Below, in pieces: positions 8,511 to 44,583 of a DNA stretch of 64,000 nt (the stretch's first letter is position 1; every line of letters begins with the position of its first letter). The position numbers and the translations under genes were made by a program. The notes beneath the pieces are model-generated. The model saw only the letters and a list, made by a program, of their open reading frames with translations. It was not told the DNA's origin and made no database searches. The DNA comes from Thauera carbonicopians (GTDB lineage Bacteria; Pseudomonadota; Gammaproteobacteria; Burkholderiales; Rhodocyclaceae): NCBI RefSeq assembly GCF_025699485.1, contig NZ_JANUXN010000007.1:84495-148494 (forward strand), given 5' to 3'.

Positions 8511-10178
8511 GTGGACAAGATCTGGCTGAAAAGCTACCCCGTCGGCGTGCCTGCCGAAATCGACATCAACGAGTTCCGCTCGCTGGTCGATCTCTTCGAG
8601 CAGGGTGTGCGCCGCTTCGCGTCGCGCACGGCCTACATCTGCATGGGCAAGGGCATCACCTACGCCGAGCTCGATCACCTGTCGGCACAGTTTGCCGGCT
8701 ACCTGCAGGGGGAACTGAAGCTGCCTGCCGGTGCCCGCGTGGCACTGATGATGCCCAATCTGCTGCAGTATCCCGTCGCCCTGTTCGGCACCCTGCGCGC
8801 GGGTTATACCGTCGTCAACGTCAATCCGCTGTACACCGCGCGGGAACTCGAACACCAGTTGCAGGACGCGGGCGCGGACGCCATCGTCATCGTCGAGAAT
8901 TTCGCCCATACGCTCGAGCAGGTGCGCGCGAAGGTAGCGGTGAAGCACGTGGTGGTCACCAGCCTCGGGGAGATGCTGGGCTTCCCGAAGTCGATGCTGG
9001 TCGATTTCGTCGTCCGCCGGGTGAAGAAGATGGTTCCGCCCTGGCGCCTCGACGGCGCGGTGCGCTTCAGCGATGCCCTGGCGAAAGGCGGGCGCCATCG
9101 CCTGCAGACAGTGGAACTGGGACATGAAGACATCGCCTTCCTCCAGTACACCGGGGGGACGACCGGCAAGGCCAAGGGCGCGATCCTGACCCACGGCAAC
9201 ATCGTCGCCAACCTTCAGCAGGCCCACGCCTGGATCGGCCCCTTCGTGAAGGAGGGCGAGGAAGTGATCATCACTGCGCTGCCGCTGTATCACATCTTCT
9301 CGCTGACGGCGAATTGCCTGACCTTCTTCAAGATCGGCGCAGTCAACGTGCTGATCACCAATCCGCGCGACATCCCCGGTTTCGTCAAGGAACTGGGCAA
9401 GCACAGGTTCACCGTCATCACCGGGGTCAATACCTTGTTCAACGCCTTGTTGAACAACCCCGATTTCGCCAGGCTCGACTTCTCGAACCTGCGTGTTTCC
9501 CTCGGGGGCGGCATGGCCGTGCAGCAGGTCGTTGCCGAAAAGTGGCGCAAGGTGACCGGGATTCCGCTGGTCGAGGCCTATGGCCTGACCGAAACCTCGC
9601 CTGCGGTCACGATCAATCCGCTCGATCTGCCCGAGTTCAACCATGCCATCGGCCTGCCCGTGCCTTCGACCGAAATCAGCATCCGCGACGATGCCGACAT
9701 CGAGCAGCCGGTCGGTCAGCGCGGCGAGCTGTGCGTGCGCGGGCCGCAGGTGATGCGAGGCTACTGGCAGCTTCCCGAGGAGACCGCGCGCGCTTTCACG
9801 CCGGATGGCTTCCTGCGCACCGGCGACATCGCGGTGATCGACGACAAGGGCTTTATCTCGATCGTCGATCGCAAGAAGGACATGATCCTGGTATCGGGTT
9901 TCAACGTCTATCCGAACGAAGTCGAGGACGTCGTCGCCAGCCATCCGGGAGTGATGGAAGTGGCTGCGGTCGGGGTTCCTGACGAACGCAGCGGCGAGAC
10001 GGTCAAGGTCTTCGTCGTGCGCAAGGATCCGAACCTGACCGAAAAGGAACTGATCGCCTACTGCCAGCAGAACCTGACCGGCTACAAGGTGCCTCACCGG
10101 ATCGAGTTCCGCGACGAACTGCCCAAGAGCAACGTCGGCAAGATCCTGCGCCGGGAGCTGCGCGACGGGAACGCGTGA
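8511..10178 (+). CDS. fadD: Long-chain fatty-acid-CoA ligase
   Basis: A 555-residue AMP-forming enzyme that activates fatty acids to acyl-CoA for beta-oxidation or lipid use; the family is about 560 residues. The P-loop [11 protein letters not shown] is at residues 213-223. The adenylate-binding segments [10 protein letters not shown] and [12 protein letters not shown] follow, with a C-terminal lysine region near [12 protein letters not shown]. The GTG start at 8511 is preceded by an excellent AAGGAGGAGAT ribosome site. A terminator-like hairpin lies immediately upstream. Chain-length preference is inferred from the family. Confidence 0.93.
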
Positions 10179-10308
10179 CGTGCAAGCCCTGCGGTTCGGT
10201 ACGGCCAGTTCGGCAGATCGAGACCGATGGCGTTTTTTTGCTCATAAAGCGCTTGTATTGGTGGCGCATTCGTGGTTTCATTCGAAGCGCAATTCATTTC
10301 GAGCCATC

Positions 10309-10386
10309 ATGCGTTCCGTTTCCCGTTTCTTCTCCGTCGTGGTCGTAGCCGTACGCGTAGTAAGCGTAGGCATGCGCGCGTCGTAA
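10309..10386 (+). CDS. Valine-rich leader peptide of the ilvBN attenuator
   Basis: A 25-codon open frame beginning ATG CGT TCC and ending TAA, with nine valine codons, eight of them clustered (SVVVVAVRVVSVG), and no leucine or isoleucine. It ends 31 bases before a strong terminator hairpin and 118 bases before ilvB. This is the architecture of the enterobacterial ivbL leader, which also has a valine-rich core. Expected role: ribosomes stall on the valine codons when charged tRNA-Val is scarce, preventing the terminator and letting ilvBN be read. A weak promoter candidate (TTGTAT, 17 bases, TTTCAT) ends about 28 bases before the ATG. The ribosome site is poor. The call rests on codon content and position. 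Confidence 0.82.
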   Translation: MRSVSRFFSVVVVAVRVVSVGMRAS

Positions 10387-10417
10387 CGGGACAGAACACT
10401 CGAACTGCAGGATTCCA

Positions 10418-10454
10418 AACCCCCGTCGGCGCGCAAGCCCGGCGGGGGTTTTTG
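10418..10454 (+). terminator. Attenuator terminator upstream of ilvB
   Basis: A twelve-base stem AACCCCCGTCGG/CCGGCGGGGGTT (one G-T pair) is followed by a T run, and lies between the valine leader peptide and ilvB. It is too strong to be incidental in front of a biosynthetic operon and fits an attenuator. A short stretch within the leader, TGCGCGC near 10373, could pair with GCGCGCA at 10429-10435 as an antiterminator; this pairing is only suggestive. Confidence 0.8.
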
Positions 10455-10504
10455 CATTCTGGAACCTCGCCGGTGATGTCGCTGAAACCAAGAAGGAGAA
10501 CATC

Positions 10505-12169
10505 ATGACTCAACTCACCGGCGCGCAACTGATCGTGCGCCTGCTCGAACGCCAGGGCGTGCAGACCATCGCCGGCCTGCCCGGCGGCGCCATCCTGCCG
10601 GTCTATGACGCCTTGTCGGCCAGCAGCATCCACCATGTTTTGGCACGCCACGAACAGGGTGCGGGCTTCATGGCCCAGGGCATGTCGCGCGTGTCCGGCG
10701 TGCCGCAGGTGTGCATCGCCTCCAGCGGCCCCGGCGCGACCAACCTCGTCACCGCGATTGCCGATGCCTGCCTGGACTCGATCCCGATGGTGGTCATCAC
10801 CGGCCAGGTGCCGCAATCGATGATCGGCACGGATGCCTTCCAGGAAGTCGACATCTACGGCATCACGGTGCCGATCACCAAACACAACTTCCTCGTCCGC
10901 TCCGCCGAGGAACTGCTCGAAGTCGTGCCCGACGCCTTCCGCATCGCCATGTCCGGCCGGCCCGGCCCGGTGCTGATCGACGTGCCGAAGGACGTGCAGA
11001 ACCAGCTCGTCGAAGTGCAGGAGCTGCCGCCGCCGGCCGTCGCCGACCTGCCGCCGCAACTCGACATGACGGCGGTCGAGGACGCCGCGCGGATGATCAA
11101 CGAGGCCGTGCGTCCGGTGCTTTATCTGGGTGGCGGCGTGATCCATTCCGGCGCGTCGCCGCTGGCCGTGCAACTGGCGGAGCAGGGCGGGCTGCCGACG
11201 ACGATGACGCTGATGGCGCTCGGCGCGATGCCGGTCGATCACCCGCTGTCGGTCGGCATGCTCGGCATGCACGGCGCCCGCTACACCAACTTCGTGCTCG
11301 AGGAGGCGGACCTGCTGATCTGTGTCGGCGCCCGCTTCGACGACCGCGCGATCGGCCGCGCGGCGCAGTTCTGCCCGAACGCGAAGATCGTGCATATCGA
11401 CGTCGACCGTTCGGAGCTGCACAAGATCAAGAACGCCCACGTCGCCATCCATGCCGACGTCACCGAAGCGCTCGAAGCCCTGCTGCCGCGCGTCAAGGCA
11501 GCGCTGCGCACGGACTGGCTGGCCCAGGTCGCGGACTTGAAGCAGCGCTTTCCGATGCAGTTCCCCGACATCGACGATCCGCGCAGCCACTACGGCCTGA
11601 TCAGGGCGGTGGCCGATGCCCTCGACGACGAGGCGGTGATCGCCACCGATGTCGGCCAGCACCAGATGTGGGTCGCCCAGGCCTACCCCTTCCGCCGTCC
11701 GCGCCAGTGGCTGACCTCGGGTGGGCTGGGGACGATGGGCTTCGGCCTGCCGACGGCGATGGGCGCGGCGCTGGCCGAACCCGAGCGCACGGTGGTGTGC
11801 TTCACCGGTGACGGCAGCTTCAAGATGAACATCCAGGAACTCGCCACGCTGGCCGAGGAGGGGCTCAACCTGAAGATCGTGCTGATGAACAACAACGCGC
11901 TCGGCCTGGTGTACCAGCAGCAGGCGCTGTTCTACGGCAAGCGCCAGTTCGCCTCCCGTTACCGGGTCGAGCCGGATTTCGTCAAGATCGCCGAAGGCTT
12001 CGGCGTGCCGGCCCTCGATCTCGACCAGGCGGACGATCCGCGCGCGGCGCTGGCCAAGGCGCTCAGCGAACCCGGGCCGTGCCTGATCCACGCGACGATC
12101 GATCGCGAACAATTCGTCTATCCCATGGTGCCGCCGGGTGCCGCCAACACCGAAATGATCGGAGGCTGA
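10505..12169 (+). CDS. ilvB: Acetolactate synthase, large subunit
   Basis: A 554-residue thiamine-diphosphate enzyme making acetolactate or acetohydroxybutyrate, the first common step to valine, leucine and isoleucine. The N-terminal GLPGGAILPVYDAL contributes to the active site with the catalytic glutamate in RHEQGAGFMAQG. The thiamine-diphosphate motif is GDGSFKMNIQELATLAEEGLNLKIV in pieces near residues 437-461. It is paired with a short small subunit whose ATG overlaps this stop, as in the IlvBN isozyme. The valine leader and attenuator upstream imply control by valyl-tRNA. Start: GAAGGAGAACATC places a good ribosome site before ATG 10505. Confidence 0.95.
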   Translation: MTQLTGAQLIVRLLERQGVQTIAGLPGGAILPVYDALSASSIHHVLARHEQGAGFMAQGMSRVSGVPQVCIASSGPGATNLVTAIADACLDSIPMVVITGQVPQSMIGTDAFQEVDIYGITVPITKHNFLVRSAEELLEVVPDAFRIAMSGRPGPVLIDVPKDVQNQLVEVQELPPPAVADLPPQLDMTAVEDAARMINEAVRPVLYLGGGVIHSGASPLAVQLAEQGGLPTTMTLMALGAMPVDHPLSVGMLGMHGARYTNFVLEEADLLICVGARFDDRAIGRAAQFCPNAKIVHIDVDRSELHKIKNAHVAIHADVTEALEALLPRVKAALRTDWLAQVADLKQRFPMQFPDIDDPRSHYGLIRAVADALDDEAVIATDVGQHQMWVAQAYPFRRPRQWLTSGGLGTMGFGLPTAMGAALAEPERTVVCFTGDGSFKMNIQELATLAEEGLNLKIVLMNNNALGLVYQQQALFYGKRQFASRYRVEPDFVKIAEGFGVPALDLDQADDPRAALAKALSEPGPCLIHATIDREQFVYPMVPPGAANTEMIGG

Positions 12170-12171
12170 TG

Positions 12172-12489
12172 ATGATCGAACAGGTTGCCGACCCGCTGCC
12201 GCAAGCCAATACTTTTGCCAAGGTCGTCCTCGAGCTGGATGTGAACAACCATCCAGGCGTGATGAGCCACATCTGCAATCTCTTCGCGCGCCGCGCCTTC
12301 AATGTCGAAGGCATCCTGTGCATGCCGGTGTCCGACGGCAAGCGCTCGCGCATCTGGCTGCTGGTGTTCGACGATCACCGGCTGGAGCAGATGGTGCGCC
12401 AGGTCGAGAAGCTGGAGGACGTGCTCAACGTTCGCCGCCATGGCGCCGAGCACGAGGTGTTCGAGCGGCTGGAAGGCTTCTTCCACTGA
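12172..12489 (+). CDS. ilvN: Acetolactate synthase, small regulatory subunit
   Basis: A 105-residue ACT-domain protein that activates the catalytic subunit and mediates feedback inhibition by valine. The ACT signature VVLELDVNNHPGVMSHICNLF is recognisable at residues 18-38 (split across that stretch), with the second half GKRSRIWLLVFDD. It lacks the C-terminal domain of the longer IlvH type (about 163 residues) and so resembles IlvN. Two adjacent in-frame ATG codons exist (12169 and 12172). GGAGG at 12161-12165 favours the second; the first overlaps the ilvB stop. Confidence 0.92.
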   Translation: MIEQVADPLPQANTFAKVVLELDVNNHPGVMSHICNLFARRAFNVEGILCMPVSDGKRSRIWLLVFDDHRLEQMVRQVEKLEDVLNVRRHGAEHEVFERLEGFFH

Positions 12490-33437: not shown

Positions 33438-34312
33438 GTTGGTTGGAAAAGCTGCTGCCGCCGAAGATCAAGCGCAGCGACAGCGCAGGGCGCGGCAAGT
33501 CGACGATTCCGGAAGGACTGTGGAGCAAGTGCAGCGCATGCGAAGCCGTGCTCTATCGCTCCGACCTCGACAGCAACCAGGGCGTATGCCCGAAGTGCGG
33601 GCACCACAACCGGCTGCGCGCGCGCCAGCGTCTCGACATGCTGCTCGACATCGAAGGTCGCGTCGAGATCGGTGCCGAAGTGCGGCCGGTCGATGCGCTG
33701 AAGTTCAAGGACTCGCGCAAGTATCCCGAGCGCCTGTCGGCAGCGGGATCGGAGACCGGCGAGGCCGATGCGATGGTCGTGATGCAGGGGCTGATCGGCG
33801 GCGTGCCGGTGGTGGTGGCCTGTTTCGAGTTCGAGTTCCTCGGCGGCTCGATGGGTTCGGTGGTCGGCGAACGCTTCGTTCGCGGCGCCAAGGCCGCCTA
33901 TGAGCAGCGCCTGCCTTTCATCTGCATCACCGCCTCGGGCGGCGCGCGCATGCAGGAAGGCCTGTTCTCGCTGATGCAGATGTCCAAGACCACGGCGGCG
34001 ATCACGCGCCTGGCCGAGCGCAGGCTGCCTTTCGTCACCGTGCTGACCGATCCGACCATGGGCGGCGTGTCGGCGAGCTTCGCCTTCATGGGCGACGTCG
34101 TCATCGCCGAGCCGGGCGCGCTGATCGGCTTTGCCGGCCCGCGCGTGATCGAGCAGACGGTGCGCGAGAAGCTGCCGGAAGGCTTCCAGCGCGCCGAGTT
34201 CCTGCTGGAGAAGGGCGCCATCGACCTGATCGTCGATCGCCGCGAGATGCGGCAGGAGCTGGCGCGCCTGCTCTGCCTGTTGCTGCGCCAGCCCGCCGCC
34301 TCGGCTGCCTGA
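33434..34312 (+). CDS. accD: Acetyl-CoA carboxylase, carboxyltransferase subunit beta
   Basis: A 292-residue subunit that with AccA transfers the carboxyl group from biotin to acetyl-CoA, the first committed step of fatty-acid synthesis. The N-terminal zinc ribbon has CSAC and CPKC pairs. The crotonase-like core shows [12 protein letters not shown] and [14 protein letters not shown]. It overlaps trpA by four bases and folC by one base, so the three are probably translated together. Confidence 0.97.
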
Positions 34313-35628
34313 TGGTTTCTTCGTCCACTGCCGTTTCGCCGCGCACGCTGGCCGGCTGGCTGCAACTGCTCGAGCAGCGCCATGCGCAGGCCATCCAGCT
34401 CGGCCTGGAGCGTGTCGCGCAGGTGCGTGCCGCGCTCGGAGCCGATCCCGATGCGCTGGTGATCACGGTGGGCGGCACCAACGGCAAGGGATCGTGCTGC
34501 GCGATGCTGGAGGCCATCCTGCTGGCGGAAGGTTACCGCGTCGGCTGCTATACCTCGCCGCATCTGCTGCGCTACAACGAACGTGTCCGCGTCGATGGCA
34601 AGGACGTCGCCGACGAGGCCCTGGTCGAGGCTTTCGACGCGGTCGAAGCCGCCCGCGGCGATACGCCGCTGACTTATTTCGAGCATGGCACGCTGGCCGC
34701 CTGGGAAGTGTTCCGCAGGCAGGCGCCGGACGTCGTCATCCTCGAAGTCGGCCTGGGCGGCCGGCTGGACGCGGTGAATGTGTTCGACGCCGACTGCGCG
34801 CTGGTGACCGGCATCGCGCTCGACCACATGGATTACCTCGGCGACACCCGGGAAGCGATCGGCTTCGAGAAGGCCGGCATCTTCCGTGCCGGCCGGCCCG
34901 CCGTGTGCGGCGATCCGCAGCCGCCGGCCAGCCTGCTCGAGCATGCCGAGGCGATCGGCGCACAGTTGTGGATCAGCGGCCGCGATTTCGGCTTCGGCGG
35001 CGACCGCCAGCAGTGGGGCTACTGGCGCTACCAGGCTCCGCCTGCACGGGGCGCGCTGGTCAAGCGCGGCGGCCTTGCCTATCCGGCGCTGCGTGGCGCC
35101 AATCAGCTGCTCAACGCCGCTGCGGTGATGACGGTGCTCGACGCCGTGCGCGACCGCATGCCGGTATCGATGCAGGCCATTCGCCAGGGCCTGATGCTGG
35201 TCGAGGTGCCGGGCCGCTTCCAGGTCCTGCCCGGCCGTCCGGCGGTGGTGCTGGACGTCGCCCACAACCCGCAGGCGGCCGGCGTGCTGGCCGAGAACCT
35301 GGGGAGCATGGGTTTCCATGCGGAAACCTGGGCGGTGCTCGGCATGCTCGGCGACAAGGACGTCGAAGGCGTCGTGGCGCGGCTCAAGGGCCGGATCGAC
35401 CACTGGCTGCTTGCCGATCTGCCCGGCCCGCGCGGCCTCAAGGCCGAGGAGCTGGCGCTGCGCCTGCACATGGCGGGCGTCGAAGCCGGCATCCGCTGCT
35501 TTCCTTCGCCGAAAGATGCCTATGCTGCGGCGCAGCAGGAGGCGGGGGAGGGTGATAGAATCGCAGTCTTCGGCTCCTTCCTGACCGTTGCCGAAGTGCT
35601 CGACGCGGTGAAAGCGGGCAGACACTGA
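34312..35628 (+). CDS. folC: Bifunctional folylpolyglutamate/dihydrofolate synthase
   Basis: A 438-residue ATP-dependent Mur-ligase-family enzyme that adds glutamate to folates. The P-loop GGTNGKGS is near residues 54-61, and the family motifs SPHLLRYNERVRVDG, ILEVGLGGRLDAVN and LDVAHNPQAA follow. The start overlaps the accD stop (TGATG). In this neighbourhood folC is followed by the SPOR protein and cvpA, as here. Confidence 0.96.
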   Translation: MVSSSTAVSPRTLAGWLQLLEQRHAQAIQLGLERVAQVRAALGADPDALVITVGGTNGKGSCCAMLEAILLAEGYRVGCYTSPHLLRYNERVRVDGKDVADEALVEAFDAVEAARGDTPLTYFEHGTLAAWEVFRRQAPDVVILEVGLGGRLDAVNVFDADCALVTGIALDHMDYLGDTREAIGFEKAGIFRAGRPAVCGDPQPPASLLEHAEAIGAQLWISGRDFGFGGDRQQWGYWRYQAPPARGALVKRGGLAYPALRGANQLLNAAAVMTVLDAVRDRMPVSMQAIRQGLMLVEVPGRFQVLPGRPAVVLDVAHNPQAAGVLAENLGSMGFHAETWAVLGMLGDKDVEGVVARLKGRIDHWLLADLPGPRGLKAEELALRLHMAGVEAGIRCFPSPKDAYAAAQQEAGEGDRIAVFGSFLTVAEVLDAVKAGRH

Positions 35629-35640
35629 CGAGATCGTTTC

Positions 35641-36360
35641 GTGAGCGACGCAGAAAACCTCGACATCAAGAAACGCGCCCGGCGCCGGCTGGTGGGTGCG
35701 ATCGCACTTGCACTGCTGGCGGCGATCATCCTGCCGATGATGATGGAGCAGGAGCCGCATCCGGTCAGCGGCGACATCCAGATCACGATTCCGGACCGCG
35801 ACGCACCTGCCGGCCAGGTCCGCCCGAATGCGGCTGCGGAAGATCCGTCGCCCGCGGCTGCAGCCACGCCCGCGCCGGAGGAACAGGCTCCGCCGTCCCC
35901 GCCGCCGGTCGTCGAAGCGCCGTCGCCTGCGCCGGCGAAACCCGAAAGCAGGGCAGAGGCGCCGGCCACCGGAGTGCCGGCCACCGGATCGCCGGCCGCC
36001 CCGGCCACGAAGCCCGCGGCACCGAAGCCCGAAACGCCCAAGCCTGCACCGGCACGGCCCGCTGCCGATGAAGCGGCCGAAGCCGCGCGCGCGCGCGCCG
36101 CGATCGAAGGCCGTGAAGTGCCGAAGGCCCAGGCGCCGAAAGGCGAAACCTTCATCCTGCAGATCGGTGCCTTCGGCGATGCCGCCAGGGCCTCGCGCAT
36201 TGCTGCCGATCTCAAGAAGCAGGGTTTCGCCGCCTATACCGAGAAGGCAGGCAACGTCACCCGCGTGCGCGTCGGCCCCATCACCGGCAGGAGCGCCGCC
36301 GACAAGACGGCCGAGCAACTGCGGGCGCTGGGCTTCAGTACCGTGATCACGCCGCGCTGA
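35641..36360 (+). CDS. SPOR-domain cell-division protein (DedD-like)
   Basis: A 239-residue bitopic inner-membrane protein. A short basic cytoplasmic tail, one membrane helix (about residues 19-36), a Pro/Ala-rich periplasmic linker and a C-terminal SPOR domain (about 160-239, FILQIGAFGDAARASRIAADL in parts) are visible. SPOR domains bind denuded peptidoglycan at the division site. The start is GTG at 35641. It corresponds by position to dedD between folC and cvpA. Confidence 0.9.
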   Translation: MSDAENLDIKKRARRRLVGAIALALLAAIILPMMMEQEPHPVSGDIQITIPDRDAPAGQVRPNAAAEDPSPAAAATPAPEEQAPPSPPPVVEAPSPAPAKPESRAEAPATGVPATGSPAAPATKPAAPKPETPKPAPARPAADEAAEAARARAAIEGREVPKAQAPKGETFILQIGAFGDAARASRIAADLKKQGFAAYTEKAGNVTRVRVGPITGRSAADKTAEQLRALGFSTVITPR

Positions 36361-41932: not shown

Positions 41933-43318
41933 ATGCTTTCCATCTACAACACCCTGACGCGCAGCAAGGAAGTCTTCACCCCGATCGAGCCCGGCAAGGT
42001 CCGCATGTACGTGTGCGGCATGACGGTGTATGACTTCTGTCACCTCGGCCATGCGCGCGTGATGGTGGTGTTCGACATGGTGGCGCGCTGGCTGCGGGCC
42101 AGCGGGCTGGATGTGAACTACGTGCGCAACATCACCGACATCGACGACAAGATCATCCGCCGCGCGCAGGAGAACGGCGAGTCGATCCGCCAGTTGACCG
42201 ACCGCTTCATTACCGCGATGCACGAGGACGCCGATGCCCTCGGCGTGCTGCGCCCGGACCACGAGCCGCGCGCCACCGACTACGTCGTCCAGATGCAGAG
42301 CCTGATCTCGCGCCTCGAGCAGAAAGGCCTGGCCTACGTCGCCGCCAACCGCGACGTCTGCTACGCGGTGCGCAAGTTCGACGGCTACGGCAAGCTGTCG
42401 GGCAAGTCGCTCGACGAGCTGCGTGCCGGCGAGCGGGTGGATGTCGCCCAGGACAAGAACGATCCGCTCGACTTCGTGCTGTGGAAGCATGCGAAGGTCG
42501 AGGAACCGGGCGAGGTGAAGTGGGATTCGCCCTGGGGTGCCGGCCGTCCGGGCTGGCACATCGAATGCTCGGCGATGAGCTCCGAACTGCTCGGCGACCA
42601 TTTCGACATCCACGGTGGCGGCATGGACCTGCAGTTCCCGCACCACGAGAACGAGATCGCCCAGTCCGAAGGCGCGCACGGCCACGCCTTCGTCAATTAC
42701 TGGATGCACAACGGCTTCGTGCGTGTCGATGACGAGAAGATGTCGAAGTCGCTCGGCAACTTCTTCACCATCCGCGAGGTGCTGCAGAAGTACGACGCCG
42801 AAGTGGTGCGCTTCTTCATCCTGCGCGCCCACTACCGCAGCGCGCTGAACTACTCGGATGCGCATCTCGAGGATGCGCGCAGTGCGCTGACGCGGCTCTA
42901 CACGGCCTTGAAGAACGTGCCGGCCGAAGGCGAGGGCGAAGTCGATTGGAACGAAGCTCATGCGAGGCGCTTCCGCGCGGCGATGGACGACGACTTCAAC
43001 ACGGCCGAAGCGATGGCGGTACTGTTCGAACTGGCCAACGAGGTCAATCGCAGCGTATCGCCGGGGCTGGCGCGGCAGCTGAAGGCACTGGGTGCGGTGC
43101 TCGGCCTGCTGCAGCGCGATCCGGTGGCTTTCCTGCAGGCGGGAGCACCGGATGCCGGCGGGCTGGATGCGGCGGCGATCGAAGCGCGCATTGCCGCGCG
43201 TGCGGCGGCCAAGAAGAACAAGGACTACGCCGAAGCCGACCGCATCCGTGCCGAACTGGCCGAAGCGGGCATCGTGCTGGAGGACGGTGCCGGCGGCACG
43301 ACCTGGCGTCGCGCCTGA
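41933..43318 (+). CDS. cysS: Cysteinyl-tRNA synthetase
   Basis: A 461-residue class I synthetase charging tRNA-Cys. The HIGH-type motif is CHLGHARV near residue 36, the KMSKS loop is EKMSKSLGN near 268-276, and the zinc site ECSAMS and [10 protein letters not shown] are present. The C-terminal DALR domain is complete. It is alone on the plus strand between two minus-strand units. Confidence 0.97.
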
Positions 43319-43358
43319 GCGGGGTACTGTCGGGGCGGAGCAGCCCCGATGACGAAAG

Positions 43359-43394
43359 AATGGCCTGCCATCCGGAAGATGGCAGGCCATTTTC
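43359..43394. terminator. Intrinsic terminator between cysS and dnaJ
   Basis: A perfect thirteen-base stem AATGGCCTGCCAT/ATGGCAGGCCATT with a seven-base loop is followed by TTC on the plus strand and by CTTTC on the minus strand. It probably ends cysS and may also serve the convergent dnaJ. Confidence 0.8.
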
Positions 43395-43467
43395 ATGCCT
43401 GAACGGGCGCCGCCGGAAGAGTCGTGCGGGCGGATGGGCCGACAAGGCCCATCGTCGCGGCTGCCGC

Positions 43468-44583
<1,116 letters not shown>

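Follow-up and report, generated by a model that had tools for sequence, protein, structure and literature searches.

A probable valine-reading transcription attenuator, related to enteric ivbL, ahead of ilvBN in a betaproteobacterium

Our results suggest that the region just ahead of ilvBN in the window (the whole 64-kb stretch of DNA that we analysed; all features below lie on its forward strand) is a ribosome-mediated transcription attenuator homologous to enteric ivbL. We put the probability of this reading at roughly 0.92. The bacterium probably tunes its valine-making operon through a ribosome that reads a valine-rich leader. Three parts of such an attenuator can be found: an open reading frame with a run of valine codons ahead of a biosynthetic gene, an intrinsic terminator and a predicted antiterminator that shares the 5' arm of the terminator.

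The leader peptide, MRSVSRFFSVVVVAVRVVSVGMRAS, is encoded at 10309–10386 by 25 codons and a TAA stop codon. It contains nine valines, no leucine and no isoleucine, exactly as a preliminary description of this DNA had claimed. Eight of the valine codons (GTC GTG GTC GTA, GTA, GTA GTA, GTA) make up the putative control-codon core at 10336–10368. The same description called the valine codons mixed. Several different codons are indeed used, but the wording hides that five of the nine are GTA, the rarest valine codon here. Such a cluster is hardly expected by chance. We simulated 20 Markov-1 sequences of 64 kb and read both strands for open reading frames of 14–60 codons; none of the frames had eight or more valines within 14 residues, and a single one had seven. 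In the real window the leader is the only frame with at least seven valines per 14 residues.

Downstream of the leader lie a ribosome binding site (AAGGAG, 10493–10498), ilvB (10505–12169), which encodes the large subunit of an AHAS I-type acetolactate synthase with Pfam TPP enzyme domains, and ilvN (12172–12489, with 12169 as an alternative start), which encodes the small subunit. Both genes pass curated models of the E. coli AHAS I type: IlvB scores 1029.7 bits against NF006016 (cut-off 870) and IlvN 168.2 bits against NF006036 (cut-off 128). The nearest named relatives of ilvB are found in a Tepidiphilus MAG (76%) and in Accumulibacter regalis (72%), which agrees with a betaproteobacterial source. 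The other AHAS gene of this genome (C22) has no such leader upstream. On contig C8 of the same genome (G000), two distantly ilvB-like gene copies with identical match scores lie about 8 kb apart (34132–35772 and 42335–43975). Upstream of the leader, an alignment of 24 same-genus regions contains a conserved CTTGT block, followed about 17 bases on by a TTC-TG-TT--A block. From this alignment we tentatively propose a promoter-like pair at 10253–10281 (TTGTAT, 17 bases, TTTCAT); a sigma-70 promoter scan of the window listed none ahead of the leader.

The leader is not a peculiarity of one genome. We searched 150 related genomes for IlvB (E 1e-150 or better) and found a match in 58, namely in 57 genomes of the same family, counting that of the window, and in G121, which belongs to another family and whose protein is 48% identical. 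All 57 same-family ilvB loci have a counterpart of the leader, an open reading frame of 22–51 codons with a terminator behind it. The preliminary description had named the loss of the valine cluster or of the terminator in close relatives as evidence against an attenuator; a leader and a terminator are present at all 57 loci. Valine outnumbers leucine in 55 of the leaders, ties with it in one (L061) and falls behind it in one (L042), and 49 leaders contain Val-Arg-Val. Across all 57, valine makes up 27.6% of residues, leucine 6.6% and isoleucine 1.9%, compared to 9.5%, 9.6% and 4.7% in eight long open reading frames of the window, six of which were identified by family search. Hence, valine alone among the three branched-chain residues is enriched in the leaders of the family. 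The earlier suggestion that the signal is valine alone is therefore borne out by family composition, but leucine and isoleucine are both completely absent, as in the window, from just 10 of the 57 leaders (leucine from 12). In G121 (L064, contig 27) an isoleucine-rich frame, MRPFIAATTIIIIRTVIKRHGARCC..., lies 222–126 bases upstream of the AHAS gene that is 48% like this ilvB, with a strong terminator between the two; it may represent an isoleucine attenuator from a different family of the order.

The terminator, AAACCCCCGUCGG / CCGGCGGGGGUUU, lies at 10417–10453 (−28.5 kcal/mol), beginning 30 bases past the leader stop codon and ending ahead of ilvB. A hairpin between leader and ilvB had been reported before, and it is there. 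A simple promoter and terminator scan of the window listed no terminator at this leader, presumably because its stem continues into the run of U residues. The 5' segment of the predicted antiterminator, GCGCGUCG-UA-ACGGG, spans 10376–10390 and includes the leader stop codon (10384–10386). In the predicted fold 10376–10383 and 10386–10390 pair with 10422–10434. By predicted folds and pair counts this latter segment, CCCGUCGGCGCGC, is both the 3' side of the antiterminator and part of the 5' arm of the terminator; the two predicted pairings are shown to be mutually exclusive.

For comparative folding we aligned 45 of the 57 leaders (alignment A1), leaving aside 12 divergent ones (L047, L049, L050, L052, L053, L055, L057, L058, L059, L061, L062 and L063). 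If the 3' arm of the terminator is removed, the mean pair probability of the antiterminator is 0.5–0.8. If the valine core is treated as covered by a ribosome, the antiterminator forms (averaged pair probabilities 0.51–0.84), and if the region of the stop codon is treated as covered, the terminator forms (core pairs 0.95–1.00). Terminator pairing is conserved in 98.5% of alignment cells, with double changes in 3 of 12 pairs, and antiterminator pairing in 88.5%. Both are well above slid controls; sliding the antiterminator partners drops pairing to 24–48%. Covariation in the antiterminator is weak. Counted jointly with a small hairpin that lies within the leader frame, it has double changes in 3 of 18 pairs, which 68 of 500 shuffles reach, and further pair types do not exceed shuffles either (205 of 500). 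Double-changed cells number 8 against a shuffle mean of 3.2, and these cells as well as the covariation score beat all 500 shuffles. In single-sequence duplex tests many loci (e.g., L035, L042, L047 and L050) do no better than shuffled controls. The small hairpin (UACGC-GUAGUAA-GCGUA, 10352–10368), found by RNAalifold and pair counts, has 96.9% of cells paired over five pairs, one of which is changed on both sides, and is a possible pause hairpin. The 147-nt RNA from leader to terminator folds better than 200 of 200 shuffles (z −3.56), while the 225-nt stretch named in the preliminary description has a z of −2.38, with 3 of 200 shuffles equally good.

These folds suggest a familiar sequence of events. 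Transcription would begin shortly upstream of 10309, with a ribosome following RNA polymerase and translating the leader. Under a shortage of charged tRNA-Val, the ribosome would wait on the valine codons at 10336–10359 and leave 10376–10390 free to pair with the emerging 10422–10434, so that no terminator forms and ilvBN is expressed. With ample valine, a ribosome at the stop codon (10384–10386) would mask 10376–10390 and the terminator at 10417–10453 would form. Judging from this geometry, a ribosome on any of the first seven core valine codons (10336–10359) should leave the antiterminator segment free, and one on the last (10366–10368) may cover part of it. Translation, stalling and termination in the cell are steps that we infer. 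We sought a classical 1:2 hairpin or another segment that would sequester 10376–10390 without translation, but no clear one was found in the folds. The prediction for a leader that is not translated is therefore readthrough. For E. coli, a higher ribosome occupancy of leader stop codons, that of ivbL among them, is reported to raise termination, for ivbL in rich medium (PMC5373646).

Is the leader related to ivbL or only similar to it? We built a covariance model from the 45 aligned same-family leaders only and then searched elsewhere. The model finds E. coli K-12 ivbL with 53.5 bits (E 1.9e-13) and matches all eight enteric loci (46.9–58.8 bits). It also scores 56.8 bits in the Tepidiphilus MAG, 39.3 bits in Accumulibacter regalis and 39.8 bits in a MAG labelled Opitutaceae. 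Of ten further AHAS I-type loci, which belong to the class but to other families, seven score between 39.0 and 50.6 bits and three score 28.2, 26.0 and 10.0; leaders are readable on inspection at L153 and L155. At 70 control AHAS loci the model does not exceed 26.9 bits, and several of these weaker matches, just upstream of AHAS in gammaproteobacteria, may be other branched-chain leaders. Among the 150 relatives, searched with strict filters, it reaches at least 41.6 bits in 56 of the 57 genomes of the family in which this ilvB occurs, 45 of which had contributed to the model, and 28.8 bits in the last (L061). Of the 12 leaders left out of A1, 11 are still matched at that level. In the 92 genomes without this ilvB, all scores were below 30 bits or there was no match, and none was listed for G121. 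Secondary matches in the relatives (up to 34.8 bits), inspected at nine places, follow ordinary genes and have no valine-rich leader. The AHAS I-type genes, together with a family-only RNA model that matches E. coli ivbL, argue that the leader is a homologue of ivbL, not a parallel. Against the Pfam family PF08049 (IlvB_leader, cut-off 25 bits) the window peptide has no match, the leaders of G039 and G041 score 17.2 and 15.9 bits, below cut-off, and two other leaders tested have no match.

One could also argue that the valine-rich frame is fortuitous, or belongs to a conserved RNA that is never translated, and that the terminator just ends a transcript of the upstream fadD-like gene or a small RNA. 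An acyl-CoA ligase gene does end on the same strand at 10178, just 3 of the 57 same-family loci have an SD-like motif ahead of the leader, and the core nucleotides are strongly conserved among the aligned leaders, third positions included. Nevertheless, we consider this explanation very improbable, for the following reasons. First, valine is kept while third bases vary, with GTA in this family and GTG or GTC in enterics. Second, whole codons are gained or lost, as a 3-base gap in 33 of the 45 aligned rows (columns 37–39) shows. Third, the element tracks ilvB among the 150 genomes, and the other terminator matches of the model are those after ordinary genes. We prefer a translated leader, whose initiation may be independent of an SD motif.

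The choice of valine codons points in the same direction. GTA accounts for 283 of the 445 valine codons (64%) in the 57 leaders. It is far rarer elsewhere: 12 of 310 in the eight long open reading frames of the window, 5 of 210 if only the six identified genes among them are counted, 2–4% in neighbouring genes and, across 29 relatives, 4 of 1365 in ilvB itself. In every one of these 29 genomes the GTA fraction of the leader exceeds that of the comparison genes. Four core valine positions are GTA in 44, 42, 40 and 43 of the 45 aligned relatives. Other four-fold codons of the leaders rarely end in A (43 of 860, or 5%; the highest is alanine with 25 of 211), and leucine codons are free of such a bias (CTA 2 of 106). 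The A-ending bias is specific to valine. GTA codons are decoded by the UAC tRNA species. Our survey of the genome returned 49 tRNA matches, with the anticodon decoded for part of them; among the tRNA loci examined, the tRNA-Val genes are one with anticodon UAC, one with GAC and two with CAC. The two CAC genes form a tandem pair on contig C11 (L171), so GTG has its own tRNA. Presumably the sensitivity of the attenuator depends on these GTA codons and on their decoding by the product of the one tRNA-Val(UAC) gene found.

Alternatively, GTA codons could serve the structure of the RNA and not decoding. Two of the core GTA codons help to form the small hairpin, and when the 5' part is covered the antiterminator has a probability of 0.80 with the native codons against 0.64–0.75 with synonyms. 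Without a ribosome the figures are 0.68 against 0.53–0.69. Furthermore, the two GTA codons of the hairpin loop show the same degree of conservation as the others (42 and 40 of 45), and in several divergent relatives GTC and GTA occur side by side. Since replacing GTA with synonyms in silico changes predicted antiterminator and terminator formation little, decoding seems the likelier cause of the bias and a structural role unlikely, though it deserves some weight.

The same in silico result bears on the idea that the core is a ligand-binding RNA (a riboswitch) or a protein site, with the peptide incidental. This idea draws on the conservation of GUACGCGUAGUA and of the small hairpin, and on other ilvB leaders that were, according to the account of these motifs, initially taken for riboswitch candidates (PMC10272879). 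Yet enterics keep the valine run and not the core nucleotides. At gathering cut-offs Rfam finds three tRNAs in the whole window and nothing else, and a permissive search of 10170–10560 gives eight local matches, all far under the cut-offs. We give this idea hardly any credence and retain the ribosome-read attenuator.

How did E. coli and the family of the window come to share this element? We computed three IlvB trees (89, 55 and 35 rows) and one of IlvB and IlvN together (37 rows). In all four, the enteric AHAS I sequences form a group with G035, G039 and G041 of the window's family. This group has an SH-aLRT of 97 in the quick tree and bootstrap/SH-aLRT values of 99/95, 100/98 and 100/99 in the other three, and it is nested inside the family (99; 100/98, 97/93 and 98/93). 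AU tests of the alternative, in which the family is held together, give p values of 0.169, 0.0786 and 0.0261, of which only the last (IlvB and IlvN) is below 0.05. The three tests used different sets of rows that were chosen after the first tree had been seen, and they should hence be read as support for the nesting and not as proof. Among the 57 leaders, only those of G039 and G041, two of the three nearest lineages, end in NAP before the stop codon; both end in GGNAP and E. coli ivbL in GNAP. A tentative scenario, to which we give a little less than an even chance, is that E. coli ilvBN and the ivbL attenuator in front of it originated within the Rhodocyclaceae-like family of the window and were transferred as a single unit. 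The valine run would have been kept and its codons re-tuned from GTA to GTG and GTC, with the leucine codon CTA present on the enteric side; the sensor in the source family would be a single tRNA-Val(UAC) that reads GTA. If this is true, then nature has performed a synonymous-swap experiment that marks the tRNA sensed by each host. The MAG labelled Opitutaceae (L075, contig JANQKI010000191.1) has an AHAS I-type ilvB (63%) with a valine-rich leader and a terminator, which is either a transfer or a binning error. A phylogeny of AHAS from 70 species (PMC5727371), as outlined there, gives betaproteobacteria a single AHAS and treats AHAS I as essentially gammaproteobacterial, with an origin by duplication within the gammaproteobacteria. 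Our data contradict the model in this form.

The proposed mechanism is a known one, an attenuator of the ivbL kind, and the members in a betaproteobacterial lineage are new, valine-only in this genome and with a rare-codon signature. What our analysis adds to the preliminary description is the antiterminator, the homology with ivbL, the GTA bias and the phylogeny. In our literature search we recognised no earlier description of this leader in betaproteobacteria, but an earlier prediction may exist. With these members, a textbook type of attenuator reaches far outside the enterics and is seen as a portable module that accompanies the AHAS I genes.

The closest known system is ivbL-ilvBN of E. 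coli and other enterics. The two have in common the AHAS I genes downstream, a tandem valine run broken by arginine, a leader stop codon inside the antiterminator and a near-identical GATTCCAAA-ACCCC...GGGGTTTTT stretch. They differ in that the window leader has no leucine, and hence none of the leucine control codons that enteric leaders have besides valine, whereas the E. coli leader has three, two of them CTA. The earlier contrast with an ivbL "also rich in leucine" is overstated because E. coli IvbL has nine valines and three leucines. Enteric leaders use CTA for leucine and GTG or GTC for valine where the window leader has GTA, and the E. coli leader shows no counterpart of the small conserved hairpin of the valine core (10352–10368).

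Other systems are more distant. The ilvB, ilvB-OMG and ilvB-II motifs also place an upstream frame rich in branched-chain residues before ilvB, but as described they occur in Corynebacterium, Leptospira and various phyla and contain mixed residues including threonine (PMC10272879); no Rfam model is above cut-off at our leader, which sets it apart from them. The ilvBNC attenuator of C. glutamicum equally controls an ilvB operon through a leader peptide, in a different phylum and a different operon, ilvBNC (PMC11857589). The leu leader draws its control codons from rare synonyms as well, although for leucine and not for valine. The study of that leader holds that rare codons are not a general rule and favours selective charging of isoacceptors (PMC1183508). 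A valine-specific GTA bias beside ilvB genes that are nearly free of GTA offers a clean test of how control codons are chosen, by rare-codon slowing or by selective isoacceptor charging.
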